Positions 11,187-59,746 of a stretch of 64,000 nt of DNA are shown here, piece after piece. The notes below the pieces were generated by a model. The model was not told the DNA's origin. It searched no databases and saw only the letters and a program-made list of their open reading frames with translations. This DNA comes from Betaproteobacteria bacterium (GTDB taxonomy: Bacteria > Pseudomonadota > Gammaproteobacteria > Burkholderiales > Ga0077523): NCBI GenBank assembly GCA_016125475.1, contig WGLR01000019.1, positions 184,746-248,745 of the forward strand, in the 5' to 3' direction. Made by a program: the position numbers and the translations under genes. How positions within the stretch are numbered: position 1 is the stretch's first letter; every line of letters starts with the position of its first letter.

Positions 11187-11229
11187 AGCGCCTCCTGGTC
11201 GGTGTGAGCAAAGCCACGGATCACGGTAT

Positions 11230-19656: not shown

Positions 19657-19857
19657 TCAACCGCCCGTCGCGTGCGGTGTGAAGAAAAGGAAGACACCCC
19701 ATAGCGCCAGCGTTGTCGCCAGGAGCCACGCGAATGCCATCGAAAGAATCTCGGTGGAGGTCTTGTCGTTCCTCCGCGCGGATTCGATGAGCGTGGCGAA
19801 CGACGTGACCGATCCGACGGCAAACATCACGACAACCACCGCGATGAACAGCCTCAT
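19657..19857 (-). CDS. Small two-helix membrane protein (inner prophage)
   Basis: 66 residues with two hydrophobic segments (LFIAVVVVMFAVG and WLLATTLALWGVFLFF) joined by a short charged loop. The ATG overlaps the upstream stop (ATGA). Unknown function. Confidence 0.6.
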   Translation of the reverse strand: MRLFIAVVVVMFAVGSVTSFATLIESARRNDKTSTEILSMAFAWLLATTLALWGVFLFFTPHATGG

Positions 19858-22939: not shown

Positions 22940-24301
22940 TCAGAGTTGGCGGATGACGTCCTCGTCGACGACCGGCACGCCAAGGTCGGCGGCCATGTTC
23001 ATGGCGCGCGTGACGAGGTTGTTGATCACGAGCGGGTAGCACAGCGACAGCGTCCGACCCGGTGTGCGGGTCTGGGTGAGACGGCCTCGGATGGCGGCGT
23101 AGGCCGACGGGTCGAATACCTTCGACGCGTCCGCACCGATCCGCGAGAACTTGTGCGCCAGGTACTCGCCGATGGAGTCATCGATCGGAGCCAGTTCCGC
23201 GATCTCGCAGCGGCGGATGACCTCACGCGCCTCGAAGTTCTGTCGCTCGTCGAGCTTCGCCTTCAGCTCCGGCTGGCCGACGAGGATGATCGCGAGGAGC
23301 TTGCGGAAGCCATCCTCGAGTTCCCAGAAGCGCTTGAGGTACTTCAGCGTGCCGACGCGCAGGTCGTGCGCTTCCTCGATCATCAGGACGTGCACGTTCC
23401 CCGAGCGGGACGATTCGAGCAGCGTCTTCTGGACCAGGCGCGTGCGCCGCTCGAGGGACTGAGGTACCTGGACGCCGGGGCGCAGGTCGTCGAGGATGGC
23501 CTCGCAGATCTGGCCGGCAGTCAGGACCGTCTTGTCGATCACCTGCGGCTGGATGATCCGCACCGGCGCGTCTTCGCGCGTCACGCGATCGACCAGGTCG
23601 CGACGGAGCACGGACTTTCCTGCCCCTGACTCGCCGATCACCGCAAGGAATCCCCCGAGGCGCGCGGTGGTCCACATGGCCTCGCGCACGTAGCGCGTGT
23701 CGGGTGTCGTGTAGACGTCCTTCGCTTCCTGGACGTCGTCGGCGAAGGGGTCACGGAACAGCGCGAAATTCTTCCGGGCAGCGGGTGTCAGCATGGCGGG
23801 CTCGATCGGTTCGATGTCGGGGAGGTGTTCGGGGCGTTGCTGCGCTCGACGCTCATCGGCTTTGGCGCGACGGGCTGCGAGTGCGCCCTCGTAGTTGTTC
23901 GCGGCGTTCGGTGTGCGCATCGCGGCGGAGTGCGCGAGCCGCATGGCCGCGTCGGCGACGGCCTCGCGGAGGTCTTCGTCGAGTTCGAACAGGGTGCCGA
24001 GCTGGTCGTCCGGTACCCCGCGCGCCTTGAGTGCTTCGCGGATCTGGCGCTGAATCTCGCGAACGTCGCTCATCTTTGGCCAGATGGCGTGGTTCTGAAG
24101 CTGCGCAAGGCCGGATGAACTCCACGGCTTGCCGTTCGCCTGCTTGATCTGCGGCGCAAGCCAAGTCGCCGTGATCAGGTGCTCCTGCATCACTCGTTTC
24201 AATCTCAGCGGCATGAAATCCCCCAGGGTCTTCGTCGTGTCCGCCAGTCGGCGGCGCTGGTCGGGTGCGCCTAGACGCACGTGCTCGCTGCTGTGTGTCA
24301 T
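22940..24301 (-). CDS. Transposition ATPase, MuB-like AAA protein (inner prophage)
   Basis: 453 residues. An N-terminal helical region (about 1-160) precedes an AAA domain with Walker A GESGAGKS and Walker B VLMIEEAHDL, of the TniB/ExeA type. MuB-like proteins bind target DNA, choose target sites and give target immunity for the transposase. ATG at 24301 is chosen for GGAGGG upstream; ATG at 24214 is an alternative. It lies directly downstream of the transposase gene, separated by a strong hairpin. Confidence 0.9.
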   Translation of the reverse strand: MTHSSEHVRLGAPDQRRRLADTTKTLGDFMPLRLKRVMQEHLITATWLAPQIKQANGKPWSSSGLAQLQNHAIWPKMSDVREIQRQIREALKARGVPDDQLGTLFELDEDLREAVADAAMRLAHSAAMRTPNAANNYEGALAARRAKADERRAQQRPEHLPDIEPIEPAMLTPAARKNFALFRDPFADDVQEAKDVYTTPDTRYVREAMWTTARLGGFLAVIGESGAGKSVLRRDLVDRVTREDAPVRIIQPQVIDKTVLTAGQICEAILDDLRPGVQVPQSLERRTRLVQKTLLESSRSGNVHVLMIEEAHDLRVGTLKYLKRFWELEDGFRKLLAIILVGQPELKAKLDERQNFEAREVIRRCEIAELAPIDDSIGEYLAHKFSRIGADASKVFDPSAYAAIRGRLTQTRTPGRTLSLCYPLVINNLVTRAMNMAADLGVPVVDEDVIRQL

Positions 24302-24369
24302 GTACACTTCCCTCCGCTCGTCAGAGCAACGGTGTGAAAAACGGCGCGACCTTCACCGCGCCTCCCAAG

Positions 24370-24402: not shown

Positions 24403-26151
24403 TTATTTCGCGGCCGCTATCCGACCGCCCTGCGCGGGCACCCCGGCGCCGGTCCAGCGATCGACGAGCGCCCGCACGGCGTCCTCCGGCACTCCGTCCG
24501 GATAGGCGGCGACGATCTCGGCGAAGCGATCGCGATTCATATCCACGCCCGCCTCGCGCAAGCGCTTTGCGCACGCGACGTGCGTCAGCGGCGCGGACTC
24601 GACGCGCGGCGCCTCGATCGGCAGCTCGACTCCCTTGCGATGCATGAAGCCGACGGTCGCCTCGACCTGGTCGAGGTAACCGTGCGGATCGACCTTGTTC
24701 TCGAAGGCTGGCTTGCGAGTTTTCTTCGCGGCCTCGGCCTCGCGCACCGTCTCCACGCCGTAGGCGGCGCGGAGCATGTCCTTGCGGGCGTGGTCTGGGA
24801 CGGTCTCCCTCTGTGCGCGGTAGGTCTCGCCGATGACCGGTGCTTCGGTCCAGAAGCCAGCGTCGTTGCGCTCGCGCGGTTCCAGCTCGATCCGCGTCTC
24901 GCGGCCCTCGCGGTCGGTCATCAGCAGGTGCAGGTTCGGGGCTCGATACGGGTTCACGCACACACGCACCTTCTCCCCGACGCGGATGTCGGGGACGTCG
25001 GCGACGCTGTAGGTCATCGCGCCGTAACCGCGGATCGCGTACCGCACCAGGAGGCCGCGGGACACGGTGACCTCGACGGGCTTCGTCGTGAGCAGGTCAT
25101 TCAGCAGTTCGCGCGCCGGCGCGATGCGCAGTTGTTCGGGGCGGATCTTCTGCCAGAGCGCGTACCGGGAGTGACCGTGGCGGGAGTGGCGCTCGTGCGC
25201 GTTGAAGTGGCGCATCCACGCGTGCGCGAGACCGTTGAGCTGCTCGAGGTTCTCGACGCGGGTGCCGATCGCGAGGCGGCTCTCGAACTGGCGCTCGACG
25301 ATGTTGTGCGCCACTTCGACAGACCCCTTCGCGCGCGGATTGCCCGGCAGGTGCGTGAGGTGCTTGACGCCCAGGCGCTCGAGGAGATTCGAGAACACGT
25401 GACCCTCGCTCGCGGAGCCCTTGTCGAGCACGAGCGAGAACGGGACACCGTGAAAGGGATCGCCGGCGTGGTCGCGTTTCGCGATTGCTGAGCAGAAGAA
25501 CCGGAACAGGTTCTCGGTGTCTTCGGCGCCGGTGAAGTATTCGACGTAGATCGCGCCCGAGTAGTGGTCGACCGCGACGTAGCGGATGATCCGGTGCTTC
25601 TCGATCTTCTTGAGGTTCGCCGGCTTGTTCTTGTAGAACTCCCGCTCGTTCATCACGGTGAGCCCGCCGGCCGGCAGGTAGTAGAGCACGCACACCGACG
25701 CGTCGATCTGCCACACGTGATTCGGATGCAGTGAGCGCTGCTCGATGTGCGGCGTGTCGGCGCCGACCTGGTCGGGGTGCATGCCGAGGGTGCGCAGCAC
25801 GCGCCCGACCTGCTCGTGCGAAATGTCGGCCGAGAGCATGCCGTTCGCCCGCGCAATCTCGCAGGCCGTCTTGATGCTCATCGTGCGCTTGCCGTTCGCC
25901 CGGACGCTCGCCATCAGGAGCGCGCCGAGTTCGACTGCCTCGTCGCCGTCGAGCGCACTGCGGCCGCGATCCTTGCGGGTCTTGCGGCCGCTCTCCCACC
26001 CGACGCTCTTGAGCTTGCGATACAGCTCCTGCTGCGAGCAGCCGAGCATGTCGCAGGCCGCGCGCATGATCGGGCCGCGCTGACCGTGCCCCGCATGGTC
26101 GAGGCGCTGCGCGAGTTCGCGCAGGTAATCGGCGAGTGCGAGGTCGGTCAT
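24403..26151 (-). CDS. DDE transposase, MuA-like (inner prophage)
   Basis: 582 residues. N-terminal helix-turn-helix region (about 1-130) for end binding, then an RNase H-fold integrase core with catalytic Asp150 (WQIDAS), Asp243 (LVLDKG) and Glu279 (KGSVEVAH), then a beta-barrel region and a C-terminal tail that would contact the ATPase. It should cut and join the prophage ends, both for integration and for replicative transposition. Only distantly similar to the outer element's transposase, so the two are likely not cross-acting. Confidence 0.93.
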   Translation of the reverse strand: MTDLALADYLRELAQRLDHAGHGQRGPIMRAACDMLGCSQQELYRKLKSVGWESGRKTRKDRGRSALDGDEAVELGALLMASVRANGKRTMSIKTACEIARANGMLSADISHEQVGRVLRTLGMHPDQVGADTPHIEQRSLHPNHVWQIDASVCVLYYLPAGGLTVMNEREFYKNKPANLKKIEKHRIIRYVAVDHYSGAIYVEYFTGAEDTENLFRFFCSAIAKRDHAGDPFHGVPFSLVLDKGSASEGHVFSNLLERLGVKHLTHLPGNPRAKGSVEVAHNIVERQFESRLAIGTRVENLEQLNGLAHAWMRHFNAHERHSRHGHSRYALWQKIRPEQLRIAPARELLNDLLTTKPVEVTVSRGLLVRYAIRGYGAMTYSVADVPDIRVGEKVRVCVNPYRAPNLHLLMTDREGRETRIELEPRERNDAGFWTEAPVIGETYRAQRETVPDHARKDMLRAAYGVETVREAEAAKKTRKPAFENKVDPHGYLDQVEATVGFMHRKGVELPIEAPRVESAPLTHVACAKRLREAGVDMNRDRFAEIVAAYPDGVPEDAVRALVDRWTGAGVPAQGGRIAAAK

Positions 26152-26156
26152 TCAGC

Positions 26157-27068
26157 TCACCCGTTGGCGGCAGCCTTCGCCTGCGCCCGGAAGTCCTCGA
26201 TCCAGGGTGGCGTGACCATCTCTGTGAGGTCGATGTCGATGCCGTTCTGCACCTGGACGTCGACGAGGAGCTGCATCAGGAACGTGAGGGTGTGGCGCTG
26301 CGCGGTGCGGACCGCCTCGGGCGCGTCGCCCGCGCCGTAGACCATGCCGATGTCCCGGAACGCGAGCGCAATCTGTGTGAGCCCGCCGGCGGCGCCGAGG
26401 GCTCCCTGCCAGAGGCGATTCGCGGCGTCGGCCGCACCCTCGAACTCGGGGAGCGCGTCCTTGCGGGCCAGTTCGGCGGCAAGGTCGTCGATCTTCTTGT
26501 TCTTCTCGCCGAGCAGGCGCTCCGAGATCTCGTGCTCGTCGGCGGATTGGGCCCGCGCCTTGCGCAGGGCGTCGCGCAGCTCGCGCACGCTCATGCGGTC
26601 GACGTCGTCGAGCTGGAGGCCGGCGACCGTGCCTCCGTCGTTCAGCTCGGCGATCTGCTCGTCGTCGAGCACCAGGAGTTCGAGCATCTTCGATTGCCCG
26701 AGGTGCGCGAGGCGCTTCGCGTGCTCCGGCGCGAACTTCACCGCCGCCTGCATGGCGCGCTGCGCGAACCGGGGCTCGATGCCGATCTGCTGAAGGGCGT
26801 CGAGCCACTCCCCGTGGGGCTCGTGCTCGCGCAGGACGACCAGGCGCCGGCCGAGTTCGACGAGTGCCTCGCCGGCGGCCTTGCAGAAGAAGTGCGCCTC
26901 GGCGATGAGGCGCTCGCGGTTGTAGACCTGGACCCCGAAGGTCTGGTCGATGGTGATCAGCTCGCCGGCGCGTTTGTCGACGGCGGCGGTGTCCTCGCTC
27001 AGGGCCTTCTCGTTGATCGCGGGCGGCTCGGTGGGCGTGAACGTGGCGGGTTTTCTCCCTCTTGGCAT
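26157..27068 (-). CDS. DUF3102-type phage protein (inner prophage)
   Basis: 303 residues. Conserved region about 50-110: EALVELGRRLVVLREHEPHGEWLDALQQIGIEPRFAQRAMQ, then a long coiled coil. This family sits next to the transposase in BcepMu-like phages, as also in the outer element here, which suggests a role in replication or transposition. The biochemical function is unknown. The stop is 6 bp before the transposase start. Confidence 0.75.
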   Translation of the reverse strand: MPRGRKPATFTPTEPPAINEKALSEDTAAVDKRAGELITIDQTFGVQVYNRERLIAEAHFFCKAAGEALVELGRRLVVLREHEPHGEWLDALQQIGIEPRFAQRAMQAAVKFAPEHAKRLAHLGQSKMLELLVLDDEQIAELNDGGTVAGLQLDDVDRMSVRELRDALRKARAQSADEHEISERLLGEKNKKIDDLAAELARKDALPEFEGAADAANRLWQGALGAAGGLTQIALAFRDIGMVYGAGDAPEAVRTAQRHTLTFLMQLLVDVQVQNGIDIDLTEMVTPPWIEDFRAQAKAAANG

Positions 27069-30277: not shown

Positions 30278-30303
30278 CAAATGCGTCGACGTCGACGCAT
30301 TTG
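30278..30303. repeat. 26-bp perfect palindrome, copy 1 of 3
   Basis: Both strands read CAAATGCGTCGAC followed by its exact complement. Identical copies are at 36726-36751 and 38362-38387. This one lies between cargo and the lysis cassette, 95 bp before the endolysin ATG. Confidence 0.95.
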
Positions 30304-30312
30304 ACCTTCAGC

Positions 30313-30348
30313 ATTTTCACATCAGCGCGTCGATAGTTTTCACGTCAG
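30313..30348 (-). repeat. Two internal copies of the prophage-end core sequence
   Basis: ATTTTCACATCAG (30313-30325) and TTTTCACGTCAG (30337-30348), in the same orientation as AATTTTCACGTCAG at the prophage right end (56222-56235). They lie beside the first palindrome and about 50 bp before the endolysin gene. They may be internal transposase sites, or repressor/transposase binding sites that control the lysis promoter. Confidence 0.6.
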
Positions 30349-30397
30349 TCGACTCACCCGACCTATTCGCGCGGGCGCGTGCGGGCAGAGTGCCAGC

Positions 30398-30874
30398 ATG
30401 CGCAAGATCGACTACATCGTCATCCACTGCTCGGACTCGCCGAACGGGCGTGACGACCGCATCGAGGACATCGACCGGTGGCACGCCGAGCGCGGCTTCC
30501 ATCGCAATGAGCACTGGCGCTCGCATTTCAACCCGAGCCTGATCGCGGTCGGGTATCACTTCGTCATCACCGTGAACGGCGCGCTGTTCACCGGCCGCGT
30601 GCTCGACGAGGTCGGGGCGCACGTGAAGGGCTACAACTCGCACAGCGTCGGGATCTGCATGATCGGGCGCACGAAGTTCACCGCCGTGCAGTGGCTTCAG
30701 CTCGAAAAGACCGTCGCCGCCCTCGAGAAGCAGTTCAAGGGCGCCAGCGTCGTCGGCCACCACCAGCTCAATCGCGCGAAGGTATGCCCCGGGTTCGACG
30801 TGCCCATCTGGCATGACGGCGGGATGCGGCCGGTCGCCGCGCAGATCTGTCTCCCCATTCTGAACGGAGGGTGA
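30398..30874 (+). CDS. Endolysin, N-acetylmuramoyl-L-alanine amidase (Amidase_2 family)
   Basis: 158 residues. Zinc ligands are visible: His10 in YIVIHCSDSP, a His in VGYHFVI, and the C-terminal GHHQLNRAKVCPGFD with the catalytic histidine and cysteine ligand. It cleaves the bond between the glycan strand and the stem peptide. No signal peptide, so release needs a holin, which the next gene supplies. First gene of the lysis cassette. Confidence 0.93.
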   Translation: MRKIDYIVIHCSDSPNGRDDRIEDIDRWHAERGFHRNEHWRSHFNPSLIAVGYHFVITVNGALFTGRVLDEVGAHVKGYNSHSVGICMIGRTKFTAVQWLQLEKTVAALEKQFKGASVVGHHQLNRAKVCPGFDVPIWHDGGMRPVAAQICLPILNGG

Positions 30875-30875
30875 A

Positions 30876-31535
30876 ATGCTCAGCGGAGCGCGCACCATCA
30901 TCGCAGCAGTCGTCGCCATCGTCTCGCAGTTGTGTCTCCTCTTCGGGGTCGACTTCGGCCAGGTGCTCGCCGAGCACGGATTGAAGATCGAGACCCTCGC
31001 CGACCAGATGTTCGGCGCGGTGAACCTGCTGGTGTCCATCGGGGCGGCCTGCGCGACGGTGTACTTCAGGTTCATCGCGACGAAGCGGCTCGCGCCGACT
31101 TCCGACGGGCAGACGAAGCTGCAGATGTCGGCGGCGACGATGGTCCTCGCCTTCTTCCTCGCGTCGATGATCGTCGGGTGTGCCGGCATGCCCAGGCCCG
31201 CGGCTCCCTCGAACACCCGAGAGGGGATCGAGGCAGTCGACCTGGCAATACAGCACGCCGCATCGACGATCGGCCAGATCACCTGTCCGGTCGCGAAGTG
31301 GGACTCCGCGGCTGCGAAGTGCGGTGCGTCCGGTTTCCCGATCGCGCCGGTGCACGGTCTGTCGCTCCTCGATCGTCTCGACGAGCTGCACGGCGCGGTC
31401 GGTGACGCGAAAGCCATCGCTGGTGGCAGGACCGGCTCGTGCCTGGGAGCGGAGCGGTCGCAGGTGCAGTGCATCGCCGCGATCCAGTCCGCACTGATCC
31501 GGATCGAGCAGCAGATCGCGGAGGTCGGGCAATGA
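30876..31535 (+). CDS. Holin-like membrane protein with C-terminal domain (inner prophage)
   Basis: 219 residues, starting 2 bp after the endolysin stop. Two N-terminal transmembrane segments (TIIAAVVAIVSQLCLLFG and MFGAVNLLVSIGAACATVYF) look like a small holin. A third hydrophobic stretch at about 84-103 (MVLAFFLASMIVGC) is a lipoprotein signal sequence, followed by a periplasm-type domain with three cysteines. The single frame may make one fused protein or two products, see 31125-31535. Confidence 0.7.
   Translation: MLSGARTIIAAVVAIVSQLCLLFGVDFGQVLAEHGLKIETLADQMFGAVNLLVSIGAACATVYFRFIATKRLAPTSDGQTKLQMSAATMVLAFFLASMIVGCAGMPRPAAPSNTREGIEAVDLAIQHAASTIGQITCPVAKWDSAAAKCGASGFPIAPVHGLSLLDRLDELHGAVGDAKAIAGGRTGSCLGAERSQVQCIAAIQSALIRIEQQIAEVGQ
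31125..31535 (+). CDS. Possible nested lipoprotein (spanin-like) from an internal start
   Basis: In the same frame as the holin, an ATG at 31125 would give a 136-residue protein with a type II signal peptide (MSAATMVLAFFLASMIVGC, lipobox IVGC). The mature part is helical with conserved-looking Cys. Lysis cassettes of Gram-negative phages normally need an outer-membrane lipoprotein spanin; none is found elsewhere here. Internal initiation is inferred. Confidence 0.45.
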   Translation: MSAATMVLAFFLASMIVGCAGMPRPAAPSNTREGIEAVDLAIQHAASTIGQITCPVAKWDSAAAKCGASGFPIAPVHGLSLLDRLDELHGAVGDAKAIAGGRTGSCLGAERSQVQCIAAIQSALIRIEQQIAEVGQ

Positions 31536-31750
31536 ACGGCGAGCGCACGAGCGCAGTCATCCGGGCGCTGGAGATCGGAGCGGCGATGGCCGCGTCGACG
31601 CAAGCCTATTTCGCAGACCTCGCCGCTCGCCAGAAGGCCCGCGAAGCCGAAGGCCGCGAACTGACCGACGCCGACCTGGACGAGCTGCTCGACCAGACCT
31701 CGGCGACGATCGCCAGCGCTCGGGCGCGCATCAATGGCACTGCGGAGTGA
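31532..31750 (+). CDS. Small helical protein in lysis cassette
   Basis: 72 residues from an ATG overlapping the upstream stop. A short helical protein with a charged coiled-coil stretch (LAARQKAREAEGRELTDADLDELL). No transmembrane segment. Unknown function. Confidence 0.6.
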   Translation: MNGERTSAVIRALEIGAAMAASTQAYFADLAARQKAREAEGRELTDADLDELLDQTSATIASARARINGTAE

Positions 31751-31958
31751 TCTTCGACGTGCGCTCATCGACATCGCGTGCCTGGACGATGACGACGGCG
31801 GTGAGCCGCTCGTCACCGCCTTCTCGCCTGACGTGCGGATCGACATGGAATCCGCGCGCTACCTGGTCGAGGCGATCGACGCCTACGAGGTGCTCGTCTC
31901 ACTGGTCGAGGACGGCCTTCCGCCGGGCGCCATCTCTGCGCGGCTGCGCGCTGGGTGA
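31734..31958 (+). CDS. Small acidic hypothetical protein
   Basis: 74 residues, overlapping the previous gene by 17 bp. Acidic N-terminus (IACLDDDDGGEPLV) then a helix. No family recognised. Coupled reading and codon use suggest it is real. Confidence 0.5.
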   Translation: MALRSDLRRALIDIACLDDDDGGEPLVTAFSPDVRIDMESARYLVEAIDAYEVLVSLVEDGLPPGAISARLRAG

Positions 31959-31961
31959 TTG

Positions 31962-32099
31962 ATGTGGTGGCGAATGTTCGGATGGCTCGCCGCGCTCGCC
32001 GCGGCGGTTGCTTTCTACTGGTGGTTCCTTCGGTTCCTGGTCGAGTCGTGGACCGTGGGTGCGTATTGGCTGCGGAGCGGGCTGCCGTGGGCGGGGTGA
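31962..32099 (+). CDS. Small tryptophan-rich membrane protein
   Basis: 45 residues: MWWRMFGWLAALAAAVAFYWWF is one transmembrane helix flanked by aromatic residues, followed by a short aromatic tail. It sits at the end of the lysis cassette and could be an antiholin or small holin partner; this is a guess. Confidence 0.5.
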   Translation: MWWRMFGWLAALAAAVAFYWWFLRFLVESWTVGAYWLRSGLPWAG

Positions 32100-32106
32100 G
32101 GGCCTA

Positions 32107-32991
32107 ATGCAAGCACTCTGGTGCCTCGTTGAAACGACCGACACGACGAACTCCAGTTCGATCACGACGACCGCCTCGTCCGATTACGCCAATCCATTCG
32201 TAGTGTTCGGCGCGAACGTGCCGTTCGCCTACATCATCAGGCTCGCCTCCACCGGCATTCCGATCGAGGCGGGCATCGGCTATATGTCGGGCAGCACCAC
32301 GTTCGTGCGCAACACGGTGCGAGCAACTTTGTCTGCCGGCACGTTGACGCAGTCCGGTTCCCCGGCTCGCGCTACCCTGCCGTCCGGCACGAAGTACATC
32401 GAGTGCGCCGCGCTCCCGCAGATGGTGCAACCCATTGTCCCGTACGTCGGAAGCATGGGGGGCAAGAAAGGAGTTCCCTTTGGGGGGCATCCGCGCAAGC
32501 CGGCTCTAGGCGGTTTTCACTTCGGGGGGGCGGGCCAGATCATCGCGTGGCCCGTCATCAACGTCTACGGCGGCGAAGTAGACGCCTTCGAGTTCTACGT
32601 AAGTACGGCCGGGGCCGCTGGCGCACTTTTCAGCATCGGGCTGTGGTCAATCGGCACGGATGGAAAGCCTGACCGTTTGGTCGTTGGTGCAGAAAGCATT
32701 GACGTGACAACGACGGGATACAAGGTTGGAACCTTCACGTCGACTGTCATACCTCCAGGCTACTACTACTGCGGCGTCACCTCGAACGACGCCACGGTGT
32801 TCCTGTTGGGGTCGTACGACAACATCTACCAGTACGACTGGTGGCCGGGGCCGACCGGCTGGAGCACCGACGGCTTCAACGTCGGCACCTACTACACGCT
32901 CGGCACGCTGACGCTTGCGACGACGTTTTCAGCGGCGTCGTCGTGGAGCACCAACGTGACCACCGCGACCATCGTTCCGAGGGCGGTCTGA
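32107..32991 (+). CDS. Probable virion fibre or receptor-type protein (inner prophage)
   Basis: 294 residues, rich in serine, threonine, glycine and aromatic residues, with a C-terminal beta-sandwich pattern (VINVYGGEVDAFEFYVSTAG, GYYYCGVTSNDA). Resembles short tail fibre or virion surface proteins. It lies early, before the terminase genes, with other fibre-like genes. Specific ligand unknown. Confidence 0.55.
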   Translation: MQALWCLVETTDTTNSSSITTTASSDYANPFVVFGANVPFAYIIRLASTGIPIEAGIGYMSGSTTFVRNTVRATLSAGTLTQSGSPARATLPSGTKYIECAALPQMVQPIVPYVGSMGGKKGVPFGGHPRKPALGGFHFGGAGQIIAWPVINVYGGEVDAFEFYVSTAGAAGALFSIGLWSIGTDGKPDRLVVGAESIDVTTTGYKVGTFTSTVIPPGYYYCGVTSNDATVFLLGSYDNIYQYDWWPGPTGWSTDGFNVGTYYTLGTLTLATTFSAASSWSTNVTTATIVPRAV

Positions 32992-33422
32992 TGGCGATCG
33001 ACTACATCGAAAAAGGCGAAGGCATGCACCGCGCGATCCGCGCGGCGGGGCTCAAGCTCGAGTGGGTGCAGGCTTCCCGGAAGCCAGGGGAATGGGTAGC
33101 GGACAACGAGGCCGCCGTGCAGGCGATCATCTACTCGTACGATCCACTGCCGGACGTGAAGGGCGAGCGCGTCGCTGCCATCAAGGCGGACGGGCTCGCG
33201 CGCATGCAGGCCGCGTTCCCCGCGATCCGCACGCTCGAGGATGCGAACCTGCTCGGCGAGCTGTGGCAGTCCATCGCGCCCGCGGCACGCAAGGCGACGG
33301 CGAAGTGGCAGTACATCGTCGATGTCTACACCGCAGCCGCCACGGCGATCGCCTCGGTGCGCGCGGCCACCTCGGTGGCCGAGGTAGCGGCGGTCACCGT
33401 CAACTGGCCGGCGGCGATATGA
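32991..33422 (+). CDS. Hypothetical protein, fibre-associated
   Basis: 143 residues, ATG overlapping the upstream stop (TGATG). Starts MAIDYIEKGEGMHRAIRAAG, with two helical regions. Tail-fibre assembly proteins often lie at this place, but no motif confirms it. Confidence 0.5.
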   Translation: MAIDYIEKGEGMHRAIRAAGLKLEWVQASRKPGEWVADNEAAVQAIIYSYDPLPDVKGERVAAIKADGLARMQAAFPAIRTLEDANLLGELWQSIAPAARKATAKWQYIVDVYTAAATAIASVRAATSVAEVAAVTVNWPAAI

Positions 33423-34279
33423 CCTGGGGCACTCAGGCATGGGGCATGCGCGGATGGGGCATTCAGGATGCTCCCTCCGGCGGCGGTGGGACCACCAAGA
33501 CGCTCAGTGACAGTGGCACGGGTGCCGACGCGTTGTCGATCACGGTGTCCGCTGCAGTGGCAGACTCCGGGACCGGCGCGGAGGCGTTCTCGGCGGCGGT
33601 CGGCCTTTCGCTTTCGGACACCGGCAGCGGCGCTGACGCCTTCGGTGCGGCCGCGAGTCTCGGGCTCGGTGACACTGGCGCGGGCGCCGAGACTCTGAGT
33701 GCATCGGCGGCGCTCGCGGTCGCGGATACCGGCGCCGGCGCTGACTCCCAGACGATCACCGTCACCATCGCCCTTACGGACACTGGCGCGGGCGGGGATG
33801 CTGTGGGCGTTGCCGCCAGTTCGCTCGTCTCAATTCTGGATTCCGGCTCCGCGACCGAGGTCGTCGGCATCACGACGTCGACCTCGATCTCCGACACCGG
33901 CGCCGGGGTCGATGCCTGCTCGATCTCCGTTGCGCTTGCGCTGACCGACTCGGGTGTCGGTGCCGACCTGGTCAGCGTCGTCACCGACATCATCAAGACG
34001 ATCACAGACGCCGGATCCGGCGTCGACGGTGTCGGTGTGTCGGTGAGCGTGGCGATTTCGGACACGGGTGCTGGCGCCGACCTTCTCGCGATCACCTCCG
34101 CGCTCAGCGTGCTCGACACCGCGCTGGGGGTCGACGTTGTCGTTGCCTTCAGCGCGACGACGAAGATCGTGACCATCACCTTCGCCGCGCGAAAGCGCTC
34201 GGTGACCTTCGCAATGACTCGCCGCTCCGTCGCCTTCGCGATGCGTCGGCGCTCGATCACCTTCTCGCTCAACTCGTGA
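33419..34279 (+). CDS. Repeat protein: about twelve 18-residue units, probable structural fibre
   Basis: 286 residues. After a tryptophan-rich start (WGTQAWGMRGWGIQ) and a glycine stretch come about twelve tandem units of about 18 residues with the form D-[ST]-G-x-G-[AV]-[DE]-x7-S-x3-[LI]-[TS], likely forming a beta-solenoid or ladder. The last 40 residues switch to short basic repeats (RKRSVTFAM, RRSVAFAM, RRRSITFSL). The DNA shows the same 54-bp periodicity. Position and composition suggest a virion fibre or shaft. Confidence 0.6.
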   Translation: MTWGTQAWGMRGWGIQDAPSGGGGTTKTLSDSGTGADALSITVSAAVADSGTGAEAFSAAVGLSLSDTGSGADAFGAAASLGLGDTGAGAETLSASAALAVADTGAGADSQTITVTIALTDTGAGGDAVGVAASSLVSILDSGSATEVVGITTSTSISDTGAGVDACSISVALALTDSGVGADLVSVVTDIIKTITDAGSGVDGVGVSVSVAISDTGAGADLLAITSALSVLDTALGVDVVVAFSATTKIVTITFAARKRSVTFAMTRRSVAFAMRRRSITFSLNS

Positions 34280-34286
34280 GGACGAC

Positions 34287-34778
34287 ATGCAGGTAGCGGA
34301 AAAGCTGGCTTACAAGACGCTCTGGACGATCCGGCGCTACGCCGACGACGCCGCATTCGAGCGTGACGACCCGTTCGCGGTCTCGGAGATCGACGGCAAC
34401 CTGCTGCTGAACGAGGGCATCGGCGAGCTGCTCGATCTCGCCTGCGGCCTCGGGACGCCGACGAACTTCGGCAACACGAGCGCCTACATCGGCGTCGGCG
34501 ACAGCACGACGGCCGAGGCAGCCTCGCAGACCGACCTGCAGGCGGCCTCGAACAAGACCTACAAGGCGATGAGTGCGAGCTATCCCCAGCGCTCGGGTCA
34601 GACGGTCACCTGGCGCGCGGTCTTCGGATCCGCGGACGCGAACTACGCGTGGGAGGAGTTCACGATCGCCAACGGCAGCTCGGGGACGGCGAAGAACCTG
34701 AACCGCAAGGTCTCGTCGCAAGGCACGAAAGCCTCGGGCCAGACCTGGACGGTCGACGTCTCGATCACGCTCTCGTAA
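34287..34778 (+). CDS. Phage structural protein, unknown
   Basis: 163 residues: LLLNEGIGELLDLACGLGTPTNFGNTSAYIGVGDS, then beta-rich WRAVFGSADANYAWEEF and WTVDVSITLS. The layout resembles small virion proteins found among fibre genes of transposable phages. No precise role. Confidence 0.55.
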   Translation: MQVAEKLAYKTLWTIRRYADDAAFERDDPFAVSEIDGNLLLNEGIGELLDLACGLGTPTNFGNTSAYIGVGDSTTAEAASQTDLQAASNKTYKAMSASYPQRSGQTVTWRAVFGSADANYAWEEFTIANGSSGTAKNLNRKVSSQGTKASGQTWTVDVSITLS

Positions 34779-34784
34779 GCGCGC

Positions 34785-35096
34785 ATGGATCGCATCAACG
34801 AGGCGTCGAGCGGCTATCTCACCGCGTCGTTCTACGACAAGGCGGGGGCGCTGGCCGTGCCGTCGACGGTGAGCTACCGGGTGGACTGCATCACCACCGG
34901 GACCGCCGTGCGCTCGGCCACCTCGTTGACTGCCGCGTCGCAGGTCGAGATTCACCTGACCTCCGACGACAACGCGATCCAGGTCTCCTCAAACTCGGTG
35001 GAGCGCAAGCGGGTGACCGTTACGGCGACCTACGGCTCGGGCGACCAGGTGCAGGCCGAGTACGACTACGAAGTCGCGAATCTGAGGTTCGTATGA
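34785..35096 (+). CDS. Phage structural protein, unknown, Ig-like
   Basis: 103 residues, all-beta pattern (SGYLTASFYDKAGALAVPSTVSYRVD, RVTVTATY) like a single Ig-like domain on a virion surface. Last gene before the head operon promoter candidate. Confidence 0.5.
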   Translation: MDRINEASSGYLTASFYDKAGALAVPSTVSYRVDCITTGTAVRSATSLTAASQVEIHLTSDDNAIQVSSNSVERKRVTVTATYGSGDQVQAEYDYEVANLRFV

Positions 35097-35179
35097 CCGG
35101 AAAACCCTCGACCGCGCCAGAGGCCCTACAAGCGCCGCAACGACCCTCCGGACGTCCGGAACTACGTCGCGAGGCTCAC

Positions 35180-35214
35180 ACCCCCTTTATAAAAGTTTTT
35201 AAGGCGGTTTCCGG
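35180..35214 (+). promoter_or_regulatory. 35-bp element, candidate activator-dependent head-operon promoter (inner copy)
   Basis: ACCCCCTTTATAAA, an 11-nt middle, then CGGTTTCCGG. It matches 17210-17244 of the outer element in 31 of 35 positions and lies 36 bp before the first head-operon gene. TATAAA can act as -10; no -35 is visible. Confidence 0.5.
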
Positions 35215-35249
35215 GCATTTCGGAAGGTCTCGAATGGTCGGGGGTGCGC

Positions 35250-35495
35250 TTGGCGGATGAAATCGACCGTGCGCAGGCCCTCGAGGCGGACCAACGCGCG
35301 GACGCGATCGCGGAGGTCCGGGGTCGCCAGGTGGCCGGCGACTGGCGGGTGGTGTCCGCCGAGCGGTGTGTCGAGTGCGACGACGTCATCCCCGAGGCGC
35401 GGCGCCGACTGGTGGTCGGGGTGCAGTTGTGTGCCGCATGCCAGGGCGAGCGCGAGCGTGTCGCGCTCATCGAACGACGCACTAGGGGATGGTGA
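35250..35495 (+). CDS. TraR/DksA-type zinc finger protein (inner prophage)
   Basis: 81 residues. ADEIDRAQALEADQRADAIAEV is the usual N-terminal helix, and CVECDDVIPEARRR...CAAC is the C4 zinc finger. These proteins enter the RNA polymerase secondary channel or serve as phage regulators. TTG at 35250 gives the family's normal start; GTG at 35244 is an alternative. First gene downstream of the candidate promoter. Confidence 0.8.
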   Translation: MADEIDRAQALEADQRADAIAEVRGRQVAGDWRVVSAERCVECDDVIPEARRRLVVGVQLCAACQGERERVALIERRTRGW

Positions 35496-35827
35496 TGGAC
35501 GCGAATTGGGCGAAGGTCATGCTGGACGCTGTCGCGCTCCTGGTCTCCCTGTGGGCGCTCTGGGTGGCGTCGCGACGCGCGGCGCGTGATGACGTCAATC
35601 GGCGCATTCAGGAGCTGTCCGACAAGGTCGACGCCCTCGGTGAACGCGTATCGCGAGCGGAGGAACGGATCTCGGCCGCGCCAACGCACGACGACCTCGG
35701 CAAGGTCTACCGGCGACTCGAAGACATCTCGTCCGTTCTTCATCAGCTCGTCGGTGAGCAGAAGGCAACCAACACCACCTTGCGGATCGTGACGGAACAC
35801 ATGGTAGCTACGGGGAGACAGGGATGA
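35495..35827 (+). CDS. DUF2730-type Mu-like protein with N-terminal membrane helix
   Basis: 110 residues: one transmembrane segment (VMLDAVALLVSLWALWVAS), then a coiled coil (IQELSDKVDALGERVSRAEERI). This fits the DUF2730 family encoded just before Mu-like terminase genes. Role unknown. ATG at 35489 or 35495, both overlapping the upstream stop. Confidence 0.65.
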   Translation: MDANWAKVMLDAVALLVSLWALWVASRRAARDDVNRRIQELSDKVDALGERVSRAEERISAAPTHDDLGKVYRRLEDISSVLHQLVGEQKATNTTLRIVTEHMVATGRQG

Positions 35828-36135
35828 GCGGTCCAATTTCATTCGCCGAGCGTGTCAGGGCCGAGCGGCGCCTCGCGATCCTGCGGCTGCTCTCGGCCAC
35901 GTCCACGCACCCGGCGGCCCACACGCTGCTGCACCGGGCGCTGCCGGACGTGGGGCTCGCCTCGTCGCTCGATGCCGTGCGGGCCGACTGTGCCTGGCTC
36001 GAGGAACAGGGGCTCGTCGAGCAGACGAACACCGCCGGCGTCACGCGGCTCGTTCAGGTGACCGCTCGCGGGATGGATGTCGCGAGCGGCGTCTCGCACG
36101 TGCCTGGTGTGGCGATCCCGAGGCCGGAGGACTGA
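35824..36135 (+). CDS. Winged-helix phage protein, VpaChn25_0724 type
   Basis: 103 residues: ERRLAILRLLSATSTHPAAHTLLHRALPDVG, then VRADCAWLEEQGLVE and VTARGMDVASGVSHVPGVAIPRP. This matches the small winged-helix protein regularly found between DUF2730 and the small terminase in Mu-like phages. Probably DNA-binding. Confidence 0.7.
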   Translation: MSGPISFAERVRAERRLAILRLLSATSTHPAAHTLLHRALPDVGLASSLDAVRADCAWLEEQGLVEQTNTAGVTRLVQVTARGMDVASGVSHVPGVAIPRPED

Positions 36136-36140
36136 TCGCG

Positions 36141-36692
36141 ATGACGCGCCGATCGTCGGTCAAGGGTCTGGATCCGCGCATCCGCGCCGCGGTCGACGCT
36201 GCGATCCGTGAGGACCGCGCGACGCTCGATGACATCGTCGCGATGATCAACCGCATGGGGGAGGAGCTGGGCACGGGCGACACGGCGAGCCGGTCGGCCG
36301 TGCACCGGTACCGGTCGACGTTCGAGGAGTCGATGAAGGTGTTCCAGCTCTCGCGGGAGATGGCGGCCACCTGGGGGAAGTCGCTCGAGGAGGATCCGCA
36401 GTCCGATGTCGCCCGGCTCGCCGCCCAGGTGCTGTCCGGCGTGGCGCTCAACACCGCGCAGACGCTCATCAACGCCGACGAATCGGTGCCGTCGAACGAG
36501 GTGATGTTCCTGGCGAAGGCGCTCGACCACCTGGGGCGGTTCACGAAGTCGACGACCGATGTCGCCCTGCGCCTGCGCAAGGAGATCGCCACGGAGGCCG
36601 CCGACCGTGCGGCGAAGGTGGCGAAGTCTCAGGGCCTCACCACCGAGGCGGTCGACACGATCCGCCGCGAGATTCTCGGGATCGCGGCATGA
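36141..36692 (+). CDS. Small terminase subunit (Mu gp27 / DUF3486 type)
   Basis: 183 residues. N-terminal DNA-binding region DPRIRAAVDAAIREDRATLDDI, then SRSAVHRYRSTFEESM; the rest is helical for oligomerisation. It should recognise the packaging site and load the large subunit. A protein with the same N-terminal motif lies in the outer element's early operon (61038-61463). Confidence 0.8.
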   Translation: MTRRSSVKGLDPRIRAAVDAAIREDRATLDDIVAMINRMGEELGTGDTASRSAVHRYRSTFEESMKVFQLSREMAATWGKSLEEDPQSDVARLAAQVLSGVALNTAQTLINADESVPSNEVMFLAKALDHLGRFTKSTTDVALRLRKEIATEAADRAAKVAKSQGLTTEAVDTIRREILGIAA

Positions 36693-36725
36693 GCGCCCAT
36701 TGCGTCCCGTGCAACGGCCTTCCGG

Positions 36726-36751
36726 CAAATGCGTCGACGTCGACGCATTTG
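36726..36751. repeat. 26-bp perfect palindrome, copy 2 of 3
   Basis: Same sequence as copies 1 and 3. It lies between small and large terminase genes and touches the GAGGGGG ribosome binding site (36751-36757) of the large terminase, so it could affect its translation. Confidence 0.95.
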
Positions 36752-36762
36752 AGGGGGTGACG

Positions 36763-38325
36763 ATGGCCGAGCCGAAAGCCCGCATCCGCACGAGCGACGA
36801 CGCACCGCCGCCGGTGCTCCTGGGTTACCAGCAGGAATGGGTCGACGACCAGGACGACGTCGCGGTGTGGTCGAAGAGCCGGCGCATCGGTGCGTCGTGG
36901 TGCGAGGCCGCGGCCTGTGTGCTCGAGGCGTCGAGCGCCTCCGGGCAGGACGCCCTGTACATCGGCTACTCGAAGGACATGACGCAGGAGTTCATCGAAG
37001 ACTGCGCAACCTGGGCGAAGGCGTTCCACCTGGCGGCGGCCGAGGTCGGCGAGGACGTGTTCATCGACGCCGACGATGAGGGGAACACGCGCGAGATCCA
37101 GGCGTTCAAGATCGTCTTCGCGAGCGGACGCAAGGTGCTCGCCCTCAGCTCGCGCCCGCGGTCCATCCGGGGCAAGCAGGGCCGCGTGGTCATCGACGAG
37201 GCAGCGTTCCACGACGACCTCGAGGGGCTGCTGAAGGCCGCGCTCGCGATGCTGATCTGGGGCGGGAAGGTGCGCCTGCTCAGCTCGCACAACGGCGAGG
37301 ACAATCCCTTCAGCCTGCTGTGCCGGGACATCCGCGAGGGGCGCAAGCCCTACTCGTTGCACGAGACCACCTTCCGCCAGGCGGTGGACGATGGCCTCTA
37401 CGACCGCGTGATGTTCATGCAGAGCGCGATCGCGAAAAAGCGCGGCCGCCCGATCGCACTGCCGACGCGCGAGGAGTGGGTGGCGCGCATCTACGCGCAG
37501 TACGGCGAGCACGCGGCCGAGGAACTGGACTGCATCCCGTCCCAGGGCACCGGCGTGTATCTGCCGCGCTCGATCGTCGAGCGGGCGATGACGCGCGACA
37601 TTCCGGTCATCCGCTGGAGCAAGCCGGCCGAGTTCGTCCTCCAGCGCGACCGGATGATCACGACGGACGAGTGGGTCGGCGACGTGCTCGGGCCGGTGAT
37701 CGACAGGATCCCGGCGGGGGTGCGCACGGCGCTCGGCCAGGACTTCGGGCGGACGGGCAACCTCTCCGTGATCTCGATCCTGTTCGACGAAGGCGCCGGC
37801 CGGTGGCGCGAGGCGTGCCTGGTGGAACTGCGCAACATCCCGCACGACTCGCAGGCGCGCATCCGCGACTACCTGCTCGACCGGCTGCCGCTGCTGCATC
37901 ACGCCATGTTCGACGGACGGGGCAACGGCGAGGCGCATGCCGAGGGCGCCGTGCAGCGGCTCGGCCCGCAACGGGTGACGAGCGTGAAGGCGACACCGTC
38001 GTGGTACGGCACTGCCTGGCCGAAGTACAAGGCCGCGCTCGAGGAGCTTTCCATCGCTCTGGCGTTTTCCGAGGCGGGGATCGCGGACCACCGGCGCATC
38101 GTCATGCGTAACGGCTACCCGACGGTCGACGACGGCGAAGACACGGAAAAGGACGGCAAGCGACATGGTGACAGTGCGATCGCGCGGCTGCTCGCCTGGA
38201 TGGCCACGCTCGAAGGCGGACAGCCGCCGGCGATGGGCAATGACGTCGACAACGATCCCGAGGCGTACCGGCCCGAGCATGCGCGCGGCCGGGTGAGCCT
38301 CGCAATGCACCGGAGGGCGGCCTGA
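36763..38325 (+). CDS. Large terminase subunit (Mu gp28 type)
   Basis: 520 residues. ATPase domain with an adapted Walker A at about 37-46 (SKSRRIGAS) and Walker B VVIDEA at 142-147. The C-terminal nuclease half has GQDFGR, FDGRGNGEAHAE and HGDSAIA with acidic metal ligands. It cuts concatemeric or inserted phage DNA and pumps it into the procapsid. ATG at 36763 follows a strong GAGGGGG. Confidence 0.9.
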   Translation: MAEPKARIRTSDDAPPPVLLGYQQEWVDDQDDVAVWSKSRRIGASWCEAAACVLEASSASGQDALYIGYSKDMTQEFIEDCATWAKAFHLAAAEVGEDVFIDADDEGNTREIQAFKIVFASGRKVLALSSRPRSIRGKQGRVVIDEAAFHDDLEGLLKAALAMLIWGGKVRLLSSHNGEDNPFSLLCRDIREGRKPYSLHETTFRQAVDDGLYDRVMFMQSAIAKKRGRPIALPTREEWVARIYAQYGEHAAEELDCIPSQGTGVYLPRSIVERAMTRDIPVIRWSKPAEFVLQRDRMITTDEWVGDVLGPVIDRIPAGVRTALGQDFGRTGNLSVISILFDEGAGRWREACLVELRNIPHDSQARIRDYLLDRLPLLHHAMFDGRGNGEAHAEGAVQRLGPQRVTSVKATPSWYGTAWPKYKAALEELSIALAFSEAGIADHRRIVMRNGYPTVDDGEDTEKDGKRHGDSAIARLLAWMATLEGGQPPAMGNDVDNDPEAYRPEHARGRVSLAMHRRAA

Positions 38326-39809
38326 TGGGATGGCGTGAACGCGTGGCGGGCTGGCTCGCACCAAATGCGTCGACGTCGACGCATTTGCGGGAGGCGGCGA
38401 CAGCGACCGTCGATCCGGACGAGGACCAGTGGCGCCGCCTGAGTGGCGACCTCGGGCGCGACCTGAACTCGGTCACGCAGGACCGCATGCAGGCGATCTC
38501 GGCAAAGCTCTGGGAGGCGAACAACCTCGCGAACCGCATCGTCGAGCTGCCGATCGCCTACATGCTGAGCGAGGGCGTGCGGCTGACCTCTCCGGACGCG
38601 GAAGCGCAGACCGCTCTCGATGCCTGGTGGGGTGATCCGATCAACCGCATGGACGAGCGCGTTCCCGAGCTGCTGCGCGGCCTGTCGATCTTCGGAGAGC
38701 TGTGCCTGCCGGCGTTCGTGAACGAACTCAGCGGCCGGATGCGCTTCGGCTACCTCGACCCGGCCCTGATCGCGACGGTGGTCCTCGACCCGGAAAACCC
38801 CGGGCAGCCGATCGGCGTGGTGACGAAGAAGGACCGCAAGGGCATCGCGCGGCGCTTCCGGGTCATCCTGCTCGGGCCGGACTCGGACCTCTTCACCAGT
38901 CGGACGAAGGAGATTCGCGCGACCTTCACGGACGGCGACGCGTTCTACTTCCGCGTGAACAACCTTCCGGGCGGCTCCCGGGGCCGCTCTGACCTGCTGC
39001 CGCAGGCCGACTGGCTCGACGGCTACGACAACTTCCTGTTCGGTGAGCTGGACCGTGCGCAGTTCCTGCGCGCGTTCATCTGGCACGTCGTGATGAAGGG
39101 CGCCACGCAGGACCAGGTGGACGCGTATGCGAAGAAACTCGCGACACCGAAGCCGGGCACCACGAAGGTCACGAACGACTCGATCGAGTGGAATCCGCTC
39201 ACGCCGTCGCTTCAGTCGGCGGACCTTTCGAACCTTGCCCGGTTGATCCGGAATCATGCCCTCGGCGGCGCGACGATCCCCGAGCACTGGTTCGGCGGCG
39301 GCGGCGACGTGAACCGTGCGGTCGGCGCGGAGATGGCGGAGCCCACGATCAAGATGTTCTCGATGCGCCAGCGCGACGTGAAGGCGATCCTCGAGACGAT
39401 GGGGCGCTTCGTCCTCTGGCGGAAGGCGAATGCGGCAGGCGACCAGGAGGTCGACTGGACGAAGCCCGAGTTCCAGGCCGAGGCGGTGTTCCCGGAGATG
39501 AGCCCGAAGGACACGACGAAGTACGCAACGGCCTTGCAGCAGGTGGTGACCGCCGTCGGCATCGCGGTGGACGCCGGCCGCATGACCGAGATGACGGCGG
39601 TGAGGCTGATTGCCACCGTCGCCGGGCGCCTCGGAGTCGAGATCAATGCCGAGGACGAGCTGCAGGACGCGCTCGCCGAAATGAGCGCGCGCCGAGCGAA
39701 CGACGCCAACTTCAACACGCCGCCGGGTGATCCGTCACTCGACACGAGGATCGATCCGGCGAGTGATCCAGCGACAGGCAATCCGGGAACAGGAGGGAAC
39801 GGGCCGTGA
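38325..39809 (+). CDS. Portal protein
   Basis: 494 residues. Central portal fold motifs include NNLANRIVELPIAYMLSEGV, FGYLDPALI and NLPGGSRGRSDLLP, with a helical crown toward the end. It forms the dodecameric gate for packaging and tail joining. Residues 12-23 (APNASTSTHLRE) are encoded by a copy of the 26-bp palindrome, so a regulatory or mobile repeat has been taken into the protein. ATG overlaps the terminase stop. Confidence 0.85.
   Translation: MGWRERVAGWLAPNASTSTHLREAATATVDPDEDQWRRLSGDLGRDLNSVTQDRMQAISAKLWEANNLANRIVELPIAYMLSEGVRLTSPDAEAQTALDAWWGDPINRMDERVPELLRGLSIFGELCLPAFVNELSGRMRFGYLDPALIATVVLDPENPGQPIGVVTKKDRKGIARRFRVILLGPDSDLFTSRTKEIRATFTDGDAFYFRVNNLPGGSRGRSDLLPQADWLDGYDNFLFGELDRAQFLRAFIWHVVMKGATQDQVDAYAKKLATPKPGTTKVTNDSIEWNPLTPSLQSADLSNLARLIRNHALGGATIPEHWFGGGGDVNRAVGAEMAEPTIKMFSMRQRDVKAILETMGRFVLWRKANAAGDQEVDWTKPEFQAEAVFPEMSPKDTTKYATALQQVVTAVGIAVDAGRMTEMTAVRLIATVAGRLGVEINAEDELQDALAEMSARRANDANFNTPPGDPSLDTRIDPASDPATGNPGTGGNGP
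38362..38387. repeat. 26-bp perfect palindrome, copy 3 of 3, inside the portal gene
   Basis: Identical to copies 1 and 2. It is read in frame as part of PNASTSTHL near the portal N-terminus, a stretch that looks like a flexible insertion. Confidence 0.95.
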
Positions 39810-41921: not shown

Positions 41922-42826
41922 TGGCCGGTGTCCCACGCCCCATCGCGCACCGGAACCGCGCGATCGTCGATACCGAGAAGGAGATCGTCCGGCTCCTGAA
42001 GATCGCGCTCCAGCGGATCCGGGAGCAGCTCGACAATCAGCCGACGGACTACCAGCGCTGGGCCCTGCCGCAGCTCCGCGCGCAGCTCGAGGCGATCCTC
42101 GCGGAGTTCGAGGGGCGGGCGTCGCCGGCGGCCACTGCCGGGCAGGTGAAGGCGTGGGAGGCGGCAGTCGAGAGTGTCGATGAGATTGTGAGCCGGACTG
42201 CCGGGCCGACGGTGGTGGCAGTTGTGCCCCAGGTCGACCAGACGGCGCTTCGCGCGATGCAGACCTTCATGACGGACCGCATCAAGGACGTCTCGCTCGA
42301 GGTCGTCCGGAAGATCAACACCGAACTCGGGCTCGTCATCCTGGGCGCGCAGTCTCCGAGCGAGGCGATCGGCAAGCTCGCGAAGATCTTCGATGGCCAG
42401 CGACAGCGCGCGATCACGATTGTCCGCACCGAGGTCGGGCGTGCCTTCTCGGTTGCTGGACAGGCTCGCCTGGAACAGATGGCGCCGCGGGTGCCGGGGC
42501 TGAAGAAGCAGTGGCGGCGCTCCGGGAAGATACACTCGCGACCGGGTCACGATGCGATCGACGGCCAGGTGCGTGCGATCGACGAACCGTTCGAGGTCAT
42601 CACGCCACGCGGTGAGATCGTCACGCTGATGCACCCTCGTGATCCGTCGGCCCCACCGGGCGAGACGATCAACTGCGGCTGCGAGTCACTGCCGTTCATG
42701 GACCGCTGGGCAGTGAAGAATCCGGACCGCAAACCCTTCACCGACGCGGAACTCACGCCCGCCGAGCTGAAGCGCAATCCCGTCAAGGCGGCGTTCGTCC
42801 GCAACCGCAAGAAACCCTCGAAGTAG
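41921..42826 (+). CDS. Mu F-like head morphogenesis protein
   Basis: 301 residues. The C-terminal motif RPGHDAIDGQVRAIDEPFEV, then HPRDPSAPPGETINCGCES, is the Phage_Mu_F signature. In Mu and SPP1-like phages this minor capsid protein joins the procapsid near the portal. The N-terminal half is helical. The ATG overlaps the upstream stop. Confidence 0.88.
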   Translation: MAGVPRPIAHRNRAIVDTEKEIVRLLKIALQRIREQLDNQPTDYQRWALPQLRAQLEAILAEFEGRASPAATAGQVKAWEAAVESVDEIVSRTAGPTVVAVVPQVDQTALRAMQTFMTDRIKDVSLEVVRKINTELGLVILGAQSPSEAIGKLAKIFDGQRQRAITIVRTEVGRAFSVAGQARLEQMAPRVPGLKKQWRRSGKIHSRPGHDAIDGQVRAIDEPFEVITPRGEIVTLMHPRDPSAPPGETINCGCESLPFMDRWAVKNPDRKPFTDAELTPAELKRNPVKAAFVRNRKKPSK

Positions 42827-42922
42827 TCGACTCCCGCGACCTATTTGCCCGTCATCGCGCGCGCAGACTGCGCAGCGTGGCAGTTCGCCTGCCCCGCGTT
42901 CACCCGTTGATCGAGAGAGCCG

Positions 42923-59736: not shown

Positions 59737-59746
59737 GCCGGTCCCC

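Follow-up and report, generated by a model that had tools for sequence, protein, structure and literature searches.

What purpose do three identical copies of a perfect palindrome serve in one prophage? The question is raised by a 64,000-nucleotide stretch of contig WGLR01000019.1 from a Betaproteobacteria bacterium (assembly GCA_016125475.1), referred to here at its full length as the window, in which an inner prophage, a B3-like transposable phage, carries the perfect 26 base pair (bp) palindrome CAAATGCGTCGACGTCGACGCATTTG in three exact copies (sites 1 to 3 of Table 1). On the grounds of sequence comparison it is very probable that these palindromes are the binding sites of the phage's own DUF3102 protein (P0001), and they would be sites of a dimer, since the palindromes follow the recognition helix of the protein and patterns taken from helix-matched relatives find sites.

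The initial annotation had described three identical perfect palindromes which could not be due to chance, and this was borne out: all three copies are exact, the expectation for the 26-mer was 0 in 100 dinucleotide shuffles of the window, and a chance origin was thereby ruled out. No fourth copy with up to 3 mismatches was present across the 64 kilobase (kb) window, and a scan of the whole assembly (4.88 Mb, 48 contigs) at the same tolerance gave no place besides these three, thus the 26-mer is confined to one prophage and is not abundant across the host chromosome. The contexts noticed earlier (a lysis gene, the ribosome binding site of the large terminase and the portal) are also as described: AGGGGGTGACGATG, in which the large terminase likely has its ribosome binding site and its start (36763), stands directly 3' of site 2, and site 3 is in frame with the portal open reading frame (ORF), where it reads NASTSTHL. 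The outer element had been said to lack the palindrome, and indeed the window, with the share of the outer element in it, has no further palindrome with 11/13 pairs and CAAA/TTTG-type ends.

The relatives of the DUF3102 protein were gathered by protein similarity, giving 236 loci including the window, and each set of proteins sharing the same final 150 residues was taken as one, which left 179 distinct proteins. These sets are not random: 20 loci were chosen by the exact 26-mer, and two of the searches for relatives kept the best 80 of 449 and the best 80 of 227 confirmed relatives. Two of the searches for relatives, one of them that with the best 80 of 449, used patterns including the recognition helix; the pattern of the search giving the best 80 of 227 avoids both helix and site, and its lead sequence, L020, bears the 26-mer. 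When P0001 alone was searched against viral contigs, no relative was confirmed, and a DUF3102-family match was found in 10 of 398 sampled genomes of the phylum.

The exact 26-mer occurs in 19 IMG/VR stretches and 1 stretch of the GTDB genome collection (such scans may omit the window's own record), and the DUF3102 gene contains it at 19 of the 20 loci, where it again reads NASTSTHL, the exception being L008 with the 26-mer outside the gene. More generally, a CAAA-N18-TTTG palindrome (at least 11/13 pairs, CAAA/TTTG-type ends) is located in the DUF3102 gene of 123 of the 179 distinct proteins, and with slightly looser ends there are 129 such palindromes, 128 of them having the centre in the identical codon phase. 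Seventy-six are perfect and comprise 34 sequences coding for 34 octapeptides, the window's sequence accounting for 19 of the 76, mostly from loci chosen by the 26-mer. Only about 1 in 27,000 synonymous codings (geometric mean; mean log10 fraction -4.43) would give a palindrome across the inner 22 bp. Given the 34 octapeptides for 34 palindromes and the rarity of palindromic codings, selection therefore acts on the DNA and not on the peptide; a conserved peptide in place of conserved DNA was ruled out by the same 34 octapeptides. Other perfect palindromes stand within the DUF3102 gene of the phages B3, Fc22, Ps59, PhiKM and Mae-JY22, that of phiSHP3 has two broken pairs, and none is present inside the gene of PM105 and Bise. 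The window's own DUF3102 gene has no in-gene palindrome either, and it belongs to 12 distinct proteins with sites outside the gene only (L036 shares its protein end with L034, so it is not among the 12). Across the relatives the sites are placed in the DUF3102 gene, in repressor-like genes (inside repressor-like ORFs of L181, L187 and L199) and in the late region. A separate observation concerns L008, where a cluster of several different CAAA..TTTG palindromes (L008:6000-6460), the window's exact 26-mer among them, is situated 3.4-3.8 kb upstream of a DUF3102 gene which bears a different in-gene site.

In the AlphaFold model of P0001 (mean predicted local distance difference test score, pLDDT, 87) a helix-turn-helix (HTH) is formed by helices 87-95 and 99-111, and the palindrome of the relatives codes for the segment immediately past the second, the predicted recognition helix, which contains residues 100, 103 and 104. 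Numbering the half-site 1-13 from outside and the residues as in P0001, we found in the 123 in-gene sites, from which the rules themselves were derived, that residue 103 fits base 7 in 121 (Q with C 81/81, R with G 16/16, A with T 8/8, S with T 5/5, V with T 9/11, and K and N with G, one each). Base 8 likewise agrees with residue 100 at 121 of the 123: R or H goes with G (106/106), K or Q with C (7/7), S with T (7) or C (2), and T with T (1). For residue 104 and base 10 the pairs are R with C (92/94), L, V or M with A (13/13), Q with G or A (1 each) and I with G (1). When these rules were applied to the 12 held-out outside-only sites, base 7 was right in 12/12 and base 8 in 11/12, as compared with 4/12 and 5/12 for the commonest letter (binomial p of 2e-6 and 5e-4, both ignoring relatedness). 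In the 71 distinct proteins of the search free of helix and site, with 42 in-gene and 8 outside-only sites, base 7 fits in 48/50.

For mutual information and for the tree, rows with the same half-site and more than 80% identity were removed (135 to 112). Among the columns outside the site-coded loop, residue 103 had the highest mutual information with bases 6 and 7, residue 100 with base 8 and residue 104 with base 10, in a comparison with shuffles that ignore relatedness. The tree was built without the helix and the site loop, and supported independent pairs were averaged: Q103 with GC agreed in 7.3/9 pairs and was contradicted in 0.0 (median p 0.016, range 0.008-0.125), R103 with CG agreed in 5.8/6 (p 0.031), and residue 100 with base 8 in 4.6/6 (p 0.063). 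One exception to R103 with CG is probably L040, scored by an outside site though its in-gene site fits. A clear contrast is given by the pair B3, with ARR and CAAAACGGACAAC, and L072, with AQR and CAAAAGCGACAAC.

Sites outside the gene could also be predicted. In the genomes G272, G003 and G383 the DUF3102 genes contain no strong site, and six genomes were scanned with patterns taken from helix-matched relatives. With up to 2 mismatches allowed, the AVK pattern matched solely in G272, at 1 place, 2.5 kb from the DUF3102 gene. The Q103 pattern, for which 1 mismatch was tolerated, found only the 3 known places in the window genome, 3 places in G003 at 6.7-9.4 kb from the gene and 1 in G383 at 2.4 kb, and had no match in G272, G105 and G197; the latter two carry in-gene sites beyond its coverage (L124 perfect, L117 10/13). 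Reversed-pattern controls gave 0 matches. These predictions partly draw on homology, because relatives supplied the patterns. Furthermore a variant palindrome, read NAPTSAHL, occupies the equivalent place of the portal gene in L036, where the portal fragment shares 67% identity with that of the window, and another three stand shortly before the small-terminase gene; the recognition helix of L036 has AQK where that of the window has AQR.

The structure of the protein was compared with known ones. The whole-protein model matched mostly long helices, ParB-type chains being among the rows, and because of this the DNA-binding part (residues 45-178) was modelled alone (pLDDT 88.7). Its ranks 1-10 are ParB, Noc, Spo0J and KorB chains with Z 5.1-6.3 (ParB 6sdk: Z 6.3, 6.0 Å, 113 aligned; Noc 6y93: Z 6.1, 4.0 Å, 101 aligned), which is suggestive of a DNA-binding domain resembling that of ParB, KorB and Noc at the level of predicted models. 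The P0001 model, examined for this one protein, has no N-terminal nucleotide (cytidine triphosphate, CTP)-binding domain of the ParB type, just helices and coil before residue 99. A sequence search of the PDB with the family profile returned mainly apolipoproteins, which were taken as coiled-coil noise.

Several points weigh against the assignment of the palindromes to the DUF3102 protein. All the Z values of the DNA-binding part are below 8 and Raf1 ties at rank 10; the best Foldseek hit of this part, again to Raf1, has an expectation value (E) of 0.26, and none is below 0.001. Two V103 rows misfit base 7, K104 is ambiguous at base 10 (C in 7, A in 6), and bases 6 and 10 of the held-out sites, right in 11/12 each, are predicted no better than by the commonest letter. 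The 12 held-out sites do not count as independent, because related rows occur among them (four with K103, three with V103), and the K103 rule was built on a single in-gene site. In the tree, residue 104 with base 10 agrees in 2.9/5 pairs with 0.1 against, which is not significant (median p 0.25). Bases 5, 9, 11 and 12 covary best with columns that are not in the helix, which may reflect descent or other contacts. The helix and the in-gene site are near enough for inheritance as one block, and only the outside sites escape this. Additionally, 44 of the 179 distinct proteins have no site with at least 11/13 pairs and CAAA-type ends in the scanned DNA of their loci, among which some are short and some contain weaker or CATATG/CACATG-ended palindromes. 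The complete genome of phage Bise has no CAAA-type site; it contains only a 12/13 palindrome of another type, lacking CAAA ends, at 1.1 kb 5' of the DUF3102 gene. PM105, L190, L205, L206 and L140 have CATATG- or CACATG-ended palindromes instead, 2.7-2.8 kb upstream, and for P0002, the diverged DUF3102-like protein of the outer element, no matching palindrome was recognised in the window scan. In PM105 itself (L031) we observed a CATATG-ended 26-bp near-palindrome (11/13 pairs) at 11180-11205, inside the annotated repressor gene 11008-11400, which suggests, as far as the sequence goes, that the outer CAAA can vary.

The mechanism which we infer is that in a DUF3102 dimer each subunit would set its recognition helix on one of the two 13-bp half-sites, R100, Q103 and R104 corresponding to the bases given in Table 1; the outer CAAA/TTTG is common to most of the family. 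The initial annotation had thought of sites for a dimeric regulator, which pointed the right way; what can be seen in the sequences is the sites, the conservation of the palindrome and the residue-base correspondence, so that the sites are now attached to the recognition helix of a particular protein, and binding and dimerisation would follow from this. In most relatives the in-gene site would let lock and key be inherited together, and the present phage has its three copies in the late region and none in the gene.

Table 1. Coordinates (window positions) of the palindromes, the proposed binding protein and their neighbours
Feature	Position	Strand	Remarks
Transposition protein B	22940..24307	-	phrog_296 match
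Transposase A, phrog_310	24403..26151	-	directly downstream of DUF3102 gene
DUF3102/phrog_1748 protein P0001, proposed palindrome binder	26157..27068	-	phrog_1748, E 3.9e-62; PF11300
Codons of recognition helix 99-111 (PRFAQRAMQAAVK)	26736..26774	-	proposed: R100 with base 8, Q103 with bases 6-7, R104 with base 10
Site 1, perfect 26-bp palindrome	30278..30303	.	intergenic; ends 94 bp 5' of endolysin start 30398
Endolysin (amidase) gene	30398..30874	+	3' of site 1
Small terminase gene, phrog_426	36141..36692	+	5' of site 2
Site 2, perfect 26-bp palindrome	36726..36751	.	between small and large terminase genes
Large terminase gene	36763..38325	+	3' of site 2; ORF scan began at 36559, start chosen by ribosome binding site
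Site 3, perfect 26-bp palindrome	38362..38387	.	within portal ORF 38325-39809
Portal protein gene, phrog_10963	38325..39809	+	houses site 3

What the bound protein might do is suggested by its neighbours. P0001 is above the PF11300 cut-off (25.4 bits versus 24.4), the relatives in PM105, Mae-JY22 and L181 fall under it, and phrog_1748 is annotated as DUF3102 in phage B3; in the family libraries used, DUF3102 and phrog_1748 stand without a stated function or site. The DUF3102 gene is followed by 2.1 kb of DNA or more at 155 distinct loci; at 153 of them an ORF of at least 500 amino acids starts within 450 nucleotides past the gene, and at 150 the following ORF matches transposase A of these phages. 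The PF02316 domain is present in MuA and in D3112 A, and a scan admitting E values up to 0.1 did not detect it in any of the other 8 transposases, namely the DUF3102-type ones of both window elements, B3, PhiKM, phiSHP3, Mae-JY22 and Bise, and that of JBD25, whose neighbouring protein matches the DUF3102 family only in its later part.

We tentatively suggest from the sequence context that the bound DUF3102 protein could build an accessory complex on the phage DNA for replicative transposition, somewhat like the enhancer complex of Mu. This role is favoured because the DUF3102 gene adjoins transposase A and the position of the sites is free, and its dependence on synteny and free position is at the same time what can be held against it. 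The PF02316 domain spans more than the enhancer-binding part of MuA, so its absence can at most permit a takeover by a separate protein; since the PF02316-negative transposases differ over the whole N-terminal region, this absence lends weak support to the enhancer idea, and a transposase without the Mu-type domain at its N-terminus may simply be of another class. A more speculative extension is that DUF3102 and the palindrome could act as a lock and key of self-identity: the protein would mark its own genome for the transposition machinery, the gene-embedded key would stay matched through recombination, and dozens of specificities would prevent cross-reaction between co-resident or nested transposable prophages, as in the window.

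The accessory role in transposition is favoured over autoregulation, which follows close behind as a possible though somewhat doubtful explanation. Here the DUF3102 protein would be a repressor or an elongation roadblock in its own gene and would limit the A-B operon (or repressor or late genes, where the site is there) in the manner of KorB. The KorB/ParB-like DNA-binding domain of the model would suit it, the in-gene site and A share a strand, the site coming first, sites are found in the repressor-like ORFs mentioned above and in the annotated repressor gene of PM105, and site 1 is 43 bp upstream of a 47-bp repeat, possibly a late control element. However, what is controlled would then differ greatly between lineages (early operon, repressor gene, lysis, terminase, portal), and sites 2 and 3 are within the late gene block, site 3 even in the portal coding sequence. 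A partition or nucleoid-organising complex of the ParB/parS or Noc type is unlikely: the ParB/Noc-like domain and palindromic sites that are few in number and free in position agree with it, but the P0001 model lacks the nucleotide-binding domain of ParB, and an integrated transposable prophage has no obvious need of partition. The packaging (pac) signal, also considered initially, is highly improbable in spite of the two window sites among the terminase and portal genes and of the L036 sites, one within the portal gene and three shortly before that for the small terminase, since the sites range in position from the early genes up to that of the portal, with the site in the early DUF3102 gene in most relatives and in a repressor-like gene in others, and packaging of Mu begins at the left end according to PMC5977238. 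Finally, a small mobile palindrome tolerating in-frame insertion, comparable to the Rickettsia palindromic elements and REPINs and compatible with three identical copies that have no stop in any frame and one of which is translated in the portal, was rejected because of the copy number (3 places in 4.88 Mb at up to 3 mismatches, all in one prophage, not many across a chromosome) and of co-divergence, the relatives having 34 differing perfect palindromes at one gene place which follow the recognition helix.

Further features were observed in the window. The 47-bp repeat (30347-30393 and 42825-42871, 77% alike) lies just 5' of the endolysin gene and of an ORF at 42877, and is a candidate late promoter or activator site. 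Degenerate 34-bp DNA repeats at 33498-33801, spaced by multiples of 54 bp, are inside a late-region ORF. On the early strand, an ORF at 19854-20345 (-) matches phrog_4786 (annotated cysteine dioxygenase, E 4e-32) and is adjoined by a Mu Gam-like ORF at 20342-20878. The outer element encodes at 56873-60688 a B-like phrog_296 protein, an A-like phrog_310 protein and P0002; by its sequence it looks like a B3-type transposable phage too, so that one transposable prophage appears to be nested in another.

A palindrome bound by an HTH dimer is of a known kind. ParB/parS, Noc/NBS and KorB with its operator are HTH proteins with palindromic sites, and by model their DNA-binding domain appears similar in shape. 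In contrast to them, the DUF3102 model has no nucleotide-binding N-terminal domain, the site is usually in its own gene, and many specificities exist within one phage family; the site has 26 bp, and Noc sites 16 bp according to a published abstract. According to PMC7383237, an R/Q switch in the DNA-reading helix of ParB and Noc alters base preference, which is a parallel and not a proof. The site within its own gene has a precedent in lambda O and its origin, where a phage DNA-binding protein has its site inside its own coding sequence (PMC4488673). Lambda differs in having four 19-bp iterons, an A-T-rich stretch and origin function; here there is a single palindrome, in phages with transposition genes, and it is in the gene in 123/179 distinct relatives and outside it in the window phage. 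The transposition enhancer of Mu, mentioned in PMC5977238, is similarly an internal site linked to transposition in a transposable phage. The analogy is functional only, since Mu's enhancer is bound by the transposase, and here, with transposases lacking PF02316, a separate protein is proposed. As judged by titles and abstracts, searches of the open-access literature gave no description of a family of dozens of self-encoded, co-diverged and code-readable sites.

With these results the DUF3102 family of B3-type phages, annotated without function so far, gains a probable one, site-specific DNA binding, together with its site and much of its code. Since the site is embedded in most DUF3102 genes, one sequence reveals both the protein and its target, and the family is a natural library for the evolution of HTH specificity. 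It also raises two questions: by what means transposition is organised in transposable phages whose transposase lacks the Mu-type N-terminal domain, and what keeps related prophages from interfering with one another.

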